The translations under genes and the position numbers were made by a program. Of a stretch of 64,000 nucleotides of DNA, positions 10,007 to 53,935 are shown piece by piece. The stretch is taken from the NCBI GenBank assembly GCA_002869585.1, contig PKUO01000058.1:1-64000 (forward strand), in the 5' to 3' direction. The stretch's first letter is position 1. Each line of letters opens with the position of its first letter. The notes under the pieces were generated by a model, which was given only the letters and a program-made list of their open reading frames with translations, was not told the DNA's origin and searched no databases. Source of the stretch: Sedimenticola sp. (GTDB lineage Bacteria; Pseudomonadota; Gammaproteobacteria; Chromatiales; Chromatiaceae).

Positions 10007-10837
10007 ATGAACAGTCCAGTCAAAGCACCCAATCTGAATCCTCGCCAGAAAGAGATCCTCAACCATGTGCGCATCCGCGGGGAAGTACAGGTGGATCCGT
10101 TGGCGGAAACATTCAATGTGACGCCACAGACGATACGCCGTGATCTCAATCAACTGCGCGAAATGGGTCTGCTGCACAGGGTTCATGGCGGAGCTATCGT
10201 GCATGATGGCGTAGCCAACCTCGGTTACGAGGCGCGCCGTAGAATAGCGAAAGATGAGAAAGAGGCCATAGCCCATTGCGCGGCCGATCTGATTCCCGAT
10301 GACACCTCGCTGTTTATCAATATTGGCACCACAACCGAACAGGTGGCCCGTTACCTGGCAAGTCATGTGGGTCTTCTGGTGATTACCAACAATATCAATG
10401 TCGTCAACACGCTGCGTGAGTGTGAGGCCATGCAGGTCATGACTGCCGGTGGAATCGTGCGGCGTGAAGACGGTGGCATAGTGGGTGATGCGACCGTTGA
10501 TTTTATTGCCCAGTTCAAAGTGGATTTTGCGGTGGTCGGAGCTTCGGCCATTGAAGAGGATGGTACGGTCCTTGATTATGATCCACGCGAGGTGCGTGTT
10601 GCACAGGCCATTATTGCCAATGCCAGATCGGTAATCTTGGTAGCCGACTCGACCAAGTTCGAGCGTAATGCACCTATACGCATCGTGGATATATCGAAGG
10701 TGGATTATTTTGTCACGGATCGAATGCCTTCACCTGAATTCACGGCCATCTGTAAGGAGCAGGGCGTTACCCTGATTATCGCTTCCGGAAAGGGTGAGTG
10801 CGATGCAGTTGTCGATCATCGCAAGAGAAAAGGCTGA
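10007..10837 (+). CDS. glpR: DeoR-family glycerol-3-phosphate regulon repressor
   Basis: 276 residues. N-terminal DeoR helix-turn-helix (NPRQKEILNHVRIRGEVQV, then VTPQTIRRDLNQLREMGL, residues about 11-55) followed by the sugar-phosphate-isomerase-like effector domain (INIGTTTEQVARYL; VADSTKFERNAPIRI). Members sense a phosphorylated sugar or polyol; here glycerol 3-phosphate is the likely inducer. It sits inside the operon it should control, between glpV and glpS. The ATG at 10007 lacks a strong ribosome site, suggesting low expression. Regulatory function is inferred from family and neighbours. Confidence 0.88.
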   Translation: MNSPVKAPNLNPRQKEILNHVRIRGEVQVDPLAETFNVTPQTIRRDLNQLREMGLLHRVHGGAIVHDGVANLGYEARRRIAKDEKEAIAHCAADLIPDDTSLFINIGTTTEQVARYLASHVGLLVITNNINVVNTLRECEAMQVMTAGGIVRREDGGIVGDATVDFIAQFKVDFAVVGASAIEEDGTVLDYDPREVRVAQAIIANARSVILVADSTKFERNAPIRIVDISKVDYFVTDRMPSPEFTAICKEQGVTLIIASGKGECDAVVDHRKRKG

Positions 10838-50365: not shown

Positions 50366-51001
50366 TTAATCCGAGGTCTTTTGCTTGTATTCACAAAGCG
50401 CCTCAATGATACATGATCCGCACCGGGGTTTGCGCGCCAGGCAGGTATATCGGCCATGCAGGATCAGCCAGTGGTGGGCATCCTGCAAGAACTCCTTCGG
50501 TATGTATTTGACCAGTTTGTCTTCCACCTCCCGCACGGTTTTGCCCGGCGCGATTCGGGTCCGGTTGGCAACCCGGAAGATATGGGTGTCGACCGCCATG
50601 GTCGGATGGCCAAAGGCGGTATTCAGCACGACATTGGCGGTTTTGCGGCCGACGCCTGGCAGTGACTCCAGGGCGGCGCGATCTTCCGGTACCTCGCCGT
50701 TGTGCTGGTCGATCAGGATTTGGCAGGTCTTGATGATGTTGGCCGCCTTGCTGTTGAACAGACCGATGGTTTTGATATGGTGCTTCAAGCCCTCTTCACC
50801 CAACGCCAGTATTGCGCCCGGTGTGTTGGCCACCGGATAGAGCTGCTGTGTTGCCTTGTTTACGCCCTTATCCGTTGCCTGTGCCGAGAGGATCACGGCG
50901 ATCAGCAGTTCAAAGGGAGTTGTGTAAGTGAGCTCTGTCGTCGGGCTGGGGTTTTCAGCCCGCAGCGTTGCAAAGATCAGGTGGCGTTTCTCTTTATTCA
51001 T
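50366..51001 (-). CDS. nth: Endonuclease III
   Basis: 211 residues, the exact E. coli length. Base-excision repair glycosylase/AP lyase for oxidised pyrimidines. Helix-hairpin-helix LPGVGRKTANVVLNTAF with catalytic Lys (about 120), catalytic Asp in AVDTHIFRVANR (about 138), and C-terminal [4Fe-4S] cluster CLARKPRCGSCIIEALC (C-x6-C-x2-C-x5-C). ATG 51001 gives the canonical MNKEKRHLIFATLR start. In E. coli nth ends the rsx/rnf operon; here an opposite-strand kinase gene separates it from rnfE. Confidence 0.96.
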   Translation of the reverse strand: MNKEKRHLIFATLRAENPSPTTELTYTTPFELLIAVILSAQATDKGVNKATQQLYPVANTPGAILALGEEGLKHHIKTIGLFNSKAANIIKTCQILIDQHNGEVPEDRAALESLPGVGRKTANVVLNTAFGHPTMAVDTHIFRVANRTRIAPGKTVREVEDKLVKYIPKEFLQDAHHWLILHGRYTCLARKPRCGSCIIEALCEYKQKTSD

Positions 51002-51141
51002 CAGGTGTTCAATAACGGGTGTCTGTGACGTTTCGGATCGGCAGTTTATCATGGCTAAACGCTTGAATTCCGGCTCTAATCAGTGTTTATTAGGCGCGCC
51101 CGCCGCTCTCATCGACCATCGGGCGTATTCATGGAGGAGTT

Positions 51142-53202
51142 ATGTCGGCGTCAGGGAACACACAATTCAGTGGTTACGAGAGGGCCTTGGATAATCCGGA
51201 TTTTCAAGCGGGGATGATTCGGCTGGGAATCTGGCTGGTTGCCTTAATATACATAGGTACAGCGGCCTATCGCGGTTATTACCCCGTCGACCTGAATCAC
51301 TATACCCTGCTGTTTTTCCTGTTTTTTCTTGTTTTCAGCGGTATCCTGGTCAGCGTCTATATTCGGCCGGAATGGGCGCTGAGGCGATATGTTACCCTGG
51401 TTATCGACATCTCCGCCGCCAGTTTCTGTATCTACCTGGCCCAGGACAGCACCAGCCCCTTCTACCTGATCTATATCTGGATCTTTATCTCTTACGGCAC
51501 GCGCTACGGTGAAAAATATCTGAAGGCATCTGCGTTCCTAAGCGTGATGGCCTATACGGGTGTGCTCGTATACCAGAATCAGTTCAGGGAGCAGGGCTTT
51601 GAGATCGCGCTTATCTATCTGTTGCTGACAGTGCTGCCATTTTACCAGTACGTCCTGTTGCGTAAGTTGCACAAGGCCTGCCGGGAAGCCGAGATGTCCA
51701 GCCAGGCGAAAACCCGCTTCCTGGCAAAAATGACGCGCCAGCTCAGATCCCCCCTGAACGGCATTCTGGGCATTACCCAATTGATGGAAAAGGGGAATCT
51801 CGACAGCGATCAGCGCGCCTATCTGAAAACAGTTTCCAGCGCCGCCGATACCCTGCGATCGAGAATAGGTGATGCTCTCGATTTGTCGAGAATCGAAACC
51901 GGCACGCTGACACTGGATAACCATGAGTTCGAGACGCGAACCCTGGTGCAGGATGTCTGCGACGGCATGACGGTGCCCGCCCTGGAAAAAGGGCTGGAAA
52001 TGATCTGCAGCATAGACCCTGATGTGCCGTTGACGATCCACAGCGATTTCAACCGGCTCAAGCAGATTTTATTCAATCTGGTCGAAAATGCGGTGAACAG
52101 CAGTGAAACGGGGCTGATTGAGATAAAACTCAGTGTGATGTGGCACACCATCAGTACCTATTTGCGTATTGATATCATCGATACCGGCAAAGGGGTTCCA
52201 GAGGAAATTGTTGCCGAGGTTTTCGCCAACAAGTATTCGAAGGCGAAGATGCAGTCGTTGAACGCATCGAGTGTGGGGCTGGGCCTGACGATCGTCTATC
52301 AACTATCGAAGTTGATGTCGATCGATATATCGGTAGCAAAAAACGCGGGGGGTGGCAGTTGTGTCAGCCTGGCGATCCCTCTGGGGCAGAGGACCCAGCT
52401 GGCGAGTAAAGTGCCGATGCCCGATCTGGAGGGGCTGACCGGCTTCGTCTTTGAGCGGAATCTGCGGGTGTTGGGGCAGATAGAGGCTCTGCTCTCCGAA
52501 CGGGGCGTCAGTTACCGATCGGCATCACATGTCGCGCAACTGGCCACCGAGGTCTCCTTACTGGAGAGGCGGCGTGTCGATTTTGCTATCATTGCCGATG
52601 CCCCAGACAGGCCGCAGGATATGTATCGTATCGCGGATATTGTCAGGGATCATCTGGGTCAGGATGTGCCGGTGATCTTTCTCGGCTTCAGTGGCCGGGA
52701 GATTGGCCGAAGCTATCTGCATAGCCGGTTTATGGGCAAACCTGTATTCATGGATGTATTGGCGAGAAATATCAAGCGTATGGTTGAATCTGGAGACAGC
52801 CCCCGAGACGATGACCCCAAGCATGCCGTTTCACGAATCCGTGTGCTGGTGGCCGAGGACAACCGCATCAGCGGGATGATTCTGAGTACCTTGCTCGCAG
52901 ATCTGGGGCATGAGGTGTACTGGGCCAAAGATGGGCAGGAGGCGCTGGATGCCGCCGGCGCCAGTCGATTCGATCTTGCCATAATCGATGTGCGAATGCC
53001 GAGGATGGATGGGTTGGTTTTTACCCAGCACTATCGCCGGGATGAGGGAGATGGCGCGCATATGCCGATCATTGCCCTGACCGCCCACGATAACGAGGAG
53101 CTGCGTCAACAGTGTTTTATGGTGGGCATGGACGAGTTCCTGCTCAAGCCGGTCGATCGGCAGGTATTGAGTGCTGTTATACAGCAACACCTGAAGCGTT
53201 GA
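51142..53202 (+). CDS. Hybrid sensor kinase lacking the phospho-acceptor histidine
   Basis: 686 residues, with GGAGG before the ATG. N-terminal membrane region of about six helices (residues 25-175), resembling RpfC-like proteins. The dimerisation segment reads FLAKMTRQLRSPLNGILG; kinases have SHELRTPLNG here, so residue 199 is Arg (CGC) in place of His and the next acidic residue is Gln. The ATPase domain keeps the N-box (FNLVENAVNSS), DTGKGVPEE and SVGLGLTIV. A degenerate receiver-like domain follows (440-555), then a full receiver with Asp616 (IIDVRMPRMDG), ALTA and LLKPV. It could bind ATP but not phosphorylate itself on the usual site. Flanked by rnfE (convergent) and nth (divergent). 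Confidence 0.88.
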   Translation: MSASGNTQFSGYERALDNPDFQAGMIRLGIWLVALIYIGTAAYRGYYPVDLNHYTLLFFLFFLVFSGILVSVYIRPEWALRRYVTLVIDISAASFCIYLAQDSTSPFYLIYIWIFISYGTRYGEKYLKASAFLSVMAYTGVLVYQNQFREQGFEIALIYLLLTVLPFYQYVLLRKLHKACREAEMSSQAKTRFLAKMTRQLRSPLNGILGITQLMEKGNLDSDQRAYLKTVSSAADTLRSRIGDALDLSRIETGTLTLDNHEFETRTLVQDVCDGMTVPALEKGLEMICSIDPDVPLTIHSDFNRLKQILFNLVENAVNSSETGLIEIKLSVMWHTISTYLRIDIIDTGKGVPEEIVAEVFANKYSKAKMQSLNASSVGLGLTIVYQLSKLMSIDISVAKNAGGGSCVSLAIPLGQRTQLASKVPMPDLEGLTGFVFERNLRVLGQIEALLSERGVSYRSASHVAQLATEVSLLERRRVDFAIIADAPDRPQDMYRIADIVRDHLGQDVPVIFLGFSGREIGRSYLHSRFMGKPVFMDVLARNIKRMVESGDSPRDDDPKHAVSRIRVLVAEDNRISGMILSTLLADLGHEVYWAKDGQEALDAAGASRFDLAIIDVRMPRMDGLVFTQHYRRDEGDGAHMPIIALTAHDNEELRQQCFMVGMDEFLLKPVDRQVLSAVIQQHLKR

Positions 53203-53251: not shown

Positions 53252-53935
53252 CTAGCTGGTTTGCGCCTCGGCAAGCACCACTTTGACCTTGCGACTGGCA
53301 GCCCGGCCGTCGATCACATTCTTCAGCGCAATCATAAAACCCAGGCCGAGAAAGGCACCGGGGGGTAGAATCGCCAGCAGCATGCCGTTGAAGTCCTCGC
53401 CCAGGGTCAGGGTCAGTCCGCGTGCGCCCTCACCGAACATCAGATGCGCCTGTGACAGCAGGGTGCCCATGCCGACGATTTCCCGCAACGAACCCAGAGC
53501 CACCAAGGCAAAGGTGAATCCGGCGCCCATCGCCAGCCCATCGATGGCAGAGCGGAACAGGTTGTTTTTCGAGGCAAAGGCCTCGGCCCGGCCGATGATG
53601 GCGCAGTTGGTGACGATCAGCGGGATGAAGATGCCGAGCACCTTGTAGAGCCCGTAGAACCAGGCATTCATGCTCAGTTCGACCGCAGTCACGAATGAGG
53701 CGATAACCAGCACGAATACCGGCAATCGCACTTCGGGTCGCACCAGATTGCGGATCAATGAGACGGTGACATTCGAGAGAGTCAGCACCAGGGTGGTGGC
53801 AATGCCCAGCCCCAGGCCATTGATCGCCGTATTGGTCACTGCCAGCAGCGGACAGAGCCCGAGCAGCGCGACCAGCGCCTGGTTGTTGCTCCAGAGACCA
53901 TCCTTTATCAGCTTGCTGTAACCGGTATCAGCCAT
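53252..53935 (-). CDS. rnfE: Electron transport complex subunit RnfE
   Basis: 227 residues, six membrane helices, homologous to RnfA and Nqr[20 protein letters not shown] at the N-terminus and [17 protein letters not shown] in the middle each carry the conserved Cys that with those of RnfA coordinates an intramembrane iron centre. Last gene of rnfABCDGE; 12 bp after rnfG. Confidence 0.95.

Follow-up and report, generated by a model that had tools for sequence, protein, structure and literature searches.

Can a hybrid sensor kinase that lacks its phospho-acceptor histidine still act as a kinase and, if not, what is its receiver for? This question is raised by a gene of Sedimenticola sp. located at positions 51142..53202 of the 64,000-nucleotide stretch of contig PKUO01000058.1 (assembly GCA_002869585.1), which is referred to here as the window. 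In HisKA proteins the H-box histidine, the acidic residue adjacent to it and the threonine at position +4 serve kinase and phosphatase chemistry. Bacterial pseudo-histidine-kinases such as DivL and RcsD are already known; in the accessible parts of the open-licence literature, neither this gene nor any histidine kinase with arginine at the histidine position was found to be described. An earlier reading of the sequence alone (the sequence-only reading) had proposed a pseudokinase or allosteric sensor whose receiver is phosphorylated by another protein, or a protein that is phosphorylated on a different residue.

Genomes, alignments and trees

A first search covered 38 genomes including the own genome. 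Subsequently, 210 genomes of the same family were searched, with up to five candidates scored in each, and at least 103 of them, the own genome included, contained a match at E 1e-90 or better. The set of 109 related frames consisted of 105 listed matches besides the gene under study, second copies included, and four frames from three genomes. These four additional frames are mostly pieces. One piece among the 109 has no residue at the histidine position, hence 108 frames were compared there. One second hybrid kinase copy within a genome (L119, genome G112) carries an in-frame TAG. A contig search with the 686-aa protein yielded one distant kinase only (26% identity), which is not an orthologue and was set aside.

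A column was regarded as conserved if it was at least 95% identical in the other frames (up to 105), and altered conserved columns were counted per domain. Expected stop codons were estimated roughly, giving transitions twice the weight of transversions. A tree of neighbour genes was calculated from nth, DUF1841, rnfE and rnfG of 53 loci. Within the genus two genomes were compared, the only other one examined being that of a sister species (G001).

Gene position and domain organization

The gene (P0001, plus strand) is an open frame without a stop that encodes 686 aa, read here as a probably kinase-dead hybrid sensor. It sits between nth and rnf, outside any rpf cluster. The two neighbours used for synteny are 50366..51052 (minus strand), which we take to be nth for endonuclease III, and on the opposite side 53252..53935 (minus strand), presumably rnfE.

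The N-terminal part (residues 14-180; 51181..51681) is a putative multi-helix membrane sensor of the RpfC type, an assignment that rests on blastp matches with the sensor regions of two RpfC-like kinases encoded elsewhere in the genome (E 7e-22 and 6e-18, two-sequence subject) and on modelled helices at residues 19-43, 51-74, 79-100, 108-122, 124-145 and 152 onward. It is followed by the HisKA domain (residues 189-254; 51706..51903), the HATPase_c domain (residues 302-415; 52045..52386), a middle pseudo-receiver, REC1 (residues 430-550; 52429..52791), and the final receiver, REC2 (residues 566-682; 52837..53187), all on the plus strand. HisKA, HATPase_c and Response_reg (residues 568-680, 90.9 bits for the final receiver) were above the Pfam cut-offs, and no Hpt domain was found in the protein by the Pfam scan. 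The AlphaFold model of the 686-aa protein reached a mean pLDDT of 83.8 and a pTM of 0.62, with the ATP lid (363-376) below a pLDDT of 50. According to Pfam, the model and structural matches, the HisKA and HATPase folds are present although the histidine is replaced.

Loss of the catalytic residues

As had been read from the sequence, the H-box lacks the phospho-acceptor histidine, residue 199 being arginine (CGC, 51736..51738) within MTRQLRSPL, and the adjacent acidic residue is absent as well, its place being taken by Gln200. The motif MTHELRTPL is found exactly in 98 of the 109 related frames. At the histidine position 106 of 108 frames have histidine, the exceptions being glutamine in L145 (genome G050) and asparagine in L153 (genome G053). 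The adjacent position is Glu in 107 and Asp in one of the 108, and position +4, Ser in the protein under study, is Thr in 106 related frames and Gly in the Gln and Asn cases. The seven full-length relatives from the first search (36-43% identity) all have histidine. The own genome contains 37 HisKA matches (E 0.001 or better), and since the other 36 all keep the histidine, as judged by eye from the translations, this gene is the exception.

Orthologues bearing histidine, which the sequence-only reading would have taken as a sign of a strain mutation, thus do exist; a strain mutation is nevertheless not implied, because many other positions are altered and the kinase is missing at the corresponding place of the sister genome.

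The ATPase motifs, previously described as intact, are so in part only. Residues N312, N316, D347, G349, G351, G379 and G381 are kept, but residues of the N-box (K319N, F320S, T321S), the F-box (F364K) and the G2-box (Ser377 for Gly) are altered, and at each of these five positions the replaced residue is kept by 95-99% of the related frames. With 12 of 32 conserved ATPase columns altered, the description is wrong in part; judged from the alignment, the protein does not have the complete N, G1, F and G2 boxes of an active histidine kinase. The changes in the histidine, the adjacent acid, the +4 threonine and part of the ATP site together bear out the view of a pseudokinase, and the protein is very likely kinase-dead on these sequence grounds.

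Conservation of the receivers

The final receiver presents a different picture. Its acceptor aspartate was rightly noted from the sequence as present (D616, codon 52987-52989), and it stands together with E572/D573, T647 and K669, so that the acidic pair, the acceptor Asp, the Thr/Ser and the Lys of Response_reg are all there. The degenerate middle receiver is real too, but ordinary across the family: the protein under study has E438, D486 and K533, as do 92, 97 and 97% of the related frames, respectively, and such pseudo-receivers have been described as widespread (PMC7010744).

Counted per domain, the altered conserved columns were 4/20 in the sensor, 6/24 in the HisKA region, 12/32 in the ATPase (residues 298-416), 0/3 in REC1 and 0/24 in REC2. 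A second alignment of 45 sequences, 42 of them used as reference, gave 4/24, 9/27, 13/33, 0/4 and 1/31. For the HisKA region and for the ATPase one other frame (L153) is as altered, and for the sensor two of the 105 others are. Drift of the whole gene to the extent of its ATPase (0.47 changes per conserved site) would predict about 14 stops, and drift to the extent of the HisKA region about 9; none was observed. By these counts the final receiver appears to be the best-kept domain, and there is good reason to think that it still functions as a receiver.

A stand-alone receiver in the sister genome

The sister genome shares with the window the order of rnf, nth, DUF1841, pilZ, motB and motA, and its only matching frame between rnf and nth is a stand-alone receiver with 63% identity to the final receiver, 132 codons long from a TTG or 131 from an ATG. 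The frame was not cut by a contig end, as the contig extends upstream to nth, which starts about 380 bases away. A tblastn search of the surrounding 1 kb revealed no remnant of the kinase (best E 0.72), and a G2-box-like stretch (ORF 10224-10604) was dropped due to its overlap with nth on the opposite strand. The other matches in this genome at E 1e-40 are paralogues of 26-31% identity. Between rnfE and the receiver (L047 7742-9719) the sister genome carries about 2 kb of extra genes, a CHRD-domain gene among them, as compared to about 50 bases in the window.

Among the matches listed from the 210 genomes (E 1e-24 or better, up to 20 candidates scored in each genome) this receiver is the only frame so short, all others having 243 aa or more. 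One of its 27 conserved columns is altered. The dN between the two receivers of the genus is 0.278 over 127 codons; their dS was not estimable, which is read as saturation and hence as purifying selection. Neighbour genes of the same genome pair show dN of 0.08-0.22 and dN/dS of 0.05-0.13. The two receivers have seven residues in common that are rare in 99 other sequences (578, 579, 639, 650, 651, 668 and 673), and six of these lie where helix 1 starts or next to T647 and K669. Such residues would fit a changed partner, and shared descent within the genus would explain them too.

Probable repeated loss at the nth-rnf place

The two other frames without histidine, L145 and L153, are likewise located between nth and rnf. 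Both stop short of the final receiver, and the next gene, about 40-75 bases on, is rnfE. In L145 the ATPase is nearly unchanged (1/32 columns altered), and in L153 12/31 columns are altered. Since these two frames have lost the final receiver and kept the core, the notion that the receiver is what matters is no rule of the family. A further related kinase with histidine (L147 361-2787, genome G098) has a frame that runs into an ATP-grasp-like C-terminus with weak Pfam matches (best CPSase_L_D2, 23.4 bits with a cut-off of 19.8), in which Pfam finds no receiver.

Protein trees were unstable: those of the sensor only, of sensor plus core, and of the latter without the H-box place the gene differently, one pairing it with the distant L156 (0.70) and another with L153 (0.96). 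Due to this instability, perhaps caused by long branches, the neighbour-gene tree was used instead. It joins the window with the sister genome (1.0) and L153 with the histidine-bearing G012 (0.97), and leaves L145 outside a group of 14 (0.97); the node joining L153/G012 with the window is weak (0.69). By parsimony on this tree, Arg, Gln and Asn would represent three separate losses inside one clade of 15 (0.93), of which 14 members have a HisKA domain. Judged post hoc, losses would cluster like this by chance with a probability of about 0.016, with the outside piece L056, which has no residue at the position, counted as histidine-bearing. The pairing with L153 in a protein tree (0.96) is evidence against independent losses and was given less weight because both branches are long.

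RpfC-like paralogues and candidate phosphoryl donors

On another contig of the own genome (L173 3825-11591) two RpfC-like kinases lie on either side of an RpfF-like crotonase gene, next to an HD-GYP regulator. Both kinases have the histidine, and one has a clear and one a borderline Hpt domain. The RpfF-like gene reaches 227 bits, below the curated RpfF cut-off of 550, and is better described by the general crotonase model (355.5 bits, cut-off 177). RpfF-like genes occur in each of the four genomes whose kinase is dismantled (G000, G001, G050 and G053) and in two of the five genomes with an intact kinase that were examined; as a marker of the dismantled kinase the gene was therefore rejected, the separation not being clean.

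In the contig of the window the profile search found no Hpt match and no second HisKA match. The genome as a whole has 14 Hpt matches, one of them in a short stand-alone frame that has its own hybrid kinase next to it. Candidate donors of the phosphoryl group therefore exist, and any of them might take this role.

Interpretation and alternative explanations

The catalytic residues of this hybrid sensor have been lost, its receiver has been selectively preserved, and a receiver-only state is found in the sister genome. Phosphorylation in trans, the donor and the role of a tether are what we infer beyond that. The ancestor would have been a hybrid kinase of the RpfC/PA1396 type, with membrane sensor, HisKA, ATPase, pseudo-receiver and receiver and no Hpt. 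In the genus its own autophosphorylation would have been lost, with selection now strongest on the final receiver, which may be charged in trans by the Hpt or HisKA domain of another kinase; the two RpfC-like kinases with their clear and borderline Hpt domains, or the one stand-alone Hpt of the genome, are candidates. The charged receiver might then pass the phosphoryl group on or soak it up, and the membrane sensor and dead core, discarded in the sister species on this view, may function as a tether or an allosteric gate. To this reading as a whole, a former RpfC/PA1396-type hybrid kinase that is now kinase-dead and has a receiver supplied by another kinase or Hpt, we assign a probability of roughly 0.6. 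For phosphorylation of the receiver by another protein, as proposed earlier, the support is indirect and consists of the well-kept final receiver and the receiver-only sister genome. That receivers may also act through binding alone, with no phosphorylation involved, speaks against this reading, as do the absence of an Hpt or second HisKA match from the contig of the window, the loss of the final receiver in L145 and L153, and the sensor, which by its column count has drifted more than usual; charging in trans nonetheless seems the rather more probable of the two modes of action.

A sequencing or assembly error at the histidine codon is hardly credible: the source is a draft assembly of 109 contigs and one base turns His into Arg, but three H-box and many ATPase residues are altered together in an open frame, which one sequencing slip would not produce. 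A kinase still active through another residue or substrate could rely on the seven ATP-site residues that remain, but as K319, F320, T321, F364 and the glycine at 377 are replaced and 12 of 32 conserved ATPase columns altered, this is very improbable, and the decay of the ATP site likewise disfavours phosphorylation on a different residue, the other option of the sequence-only reading. More can be said for an allosteric partner resembling DivL or RetS, in which the dead core would still form dimers or dock receivers. Through heterodimers or by binding a phosphorylated receiver it would modulate an active kinase, for instance one of the RpfC-like paralogues, without phosphotransfer of its own. 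The full-length frame has been retained despite the decay of catalytic residues, L145 and L153 keep the core with the final receiver gone, the structural matches listed for the model include RetS and DivL, and DivL is described as binding DivK~P without kinase or phosphatase activity (PMC4211667). However, the sister genome lost sensor and core at the nth-rnf place and kept the receiver, and within the protein it is the HisKA region and the ATPase that have changed most, which leaves this explanation unlikely.

Alternatively, the gene may be in decay, with only the receiver still useful and sensor and core as leftovers awaiting deletion. The sister genome would then be the end state, and the sensor drift (4/20 columns, reached by 2 of 105 other frames) would fit; the 686 codons without a stop, where about 9 to 14 stops would be expected without constraint, make it improbable. 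The receiver could also hold a partner such as the RpfF-like crotonase independently of phosphorylation, the kinase being dispensable. This draws on the reported binding of RpfF by the Xanthomonas RpfC receiver without phosphorelay (PMC4504480), on the match of that receiver (3m6m) to the final receiver at 53 bits, and on the RpfF-like gene in all four dismantled-kinase genomes. It is made quite improbable by the loss of the final receiver in G050 and G053, by RpfF-like genes in two of five intact-kinase genomes, by the low RpfF score of the own gene and its better fit to the crotonase model, by the two histidine-bearing RpfC-like kinases that already flank that gene, and by the retention of the phosphorylation residues of the receiver.

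Comparison with known systems

PA1396 of Pseudomonas aeruginosa, an RpfC-like hybrid kinase without Hpt that is described as using an orphan Hpt (PMC4504480), shares by its description the RpfC-type membrane input, the kinase core, the receiver and the lack of Hpt; it is described there as autophosphorylating, in contrast to the present protein without histidine and without a sound ATP site. Xanthomonas RpfC, which reportedly represses signal synthesis through binding of its receiver to RpfF without phosphorelay (PMC4504480), likewise has a kinase core and a receiver similar to the final receiver, but the present protein has neither Hpt nor phospho-acceptor histidine and is encoded between nth and rnf.

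The match to DivL of Caulobacter amounts to 69 bits by sequence and a Foldseek E of about 9e-12. DivL is not known to have a receiver of its own. Both proteins have a HisKA fold, another residue at the histidine place and a weakened ATP site, DivL by its description (PMC4211667); DivL is described as having Tyr at this place and binding a separate DivK~P, unlike the Arg and the own intact receiver found here. RcsD of Enterobacteriaceae is similarly described as a membrane protein whose kinase domain is inactive and which retains a single relay domain (PMC13317618, preprint); in RcsD this is the Hpt, here it is the receiver. The best solved match both by sequence (154.6 bits) and by fold was ShkA of Caulobacter (6qrj), which has the same order of core, middle pseudo-receiver and final receiver and, unlike the present protein, is described as an active kinase (PMC7010744). 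Its c-di-GMP-binding Tyr338, as described, aligns by eye with residue 530, which is Phe here, and a Tyr is not conserved in the related frames; no conserved DDR linker was seen in the 16 stretches inspected. ShkA-like control by c-di-GMP is not claimed.

A hybrid kinase apparently caught mid-dismantling

The gene seems to be caught in the middle of its dismantling, and the signalling protein has probably been rewired. The nth-rnf place offers a kinase-dead version with receiver in the window, versions without histidine and final receiver in two other genera, and the receiver alone in the sister species. As a tentative proposal, with the odds somewhat against it, this place may be a natural series in which a hybrid kinase was dismantled at least three times, with a kinase-dead intermediate acting as a membrane receptor that gates a receiver charged by another kinase. 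If true, this would turn around the usual arrangement, where the sensor acts as donor. To annotate this gene simply as 'hybrid histidine kinase' would be misleading. What exceeds routine is the repeated dismantling at one place together with a receiver-only descendant: orthologues with intact H-box, three versions without histidine (Arg, Gln and Asn) and the lone receiver at a single gene place let one ask which function survives catalytic loss and whether receivers go to a new donor.
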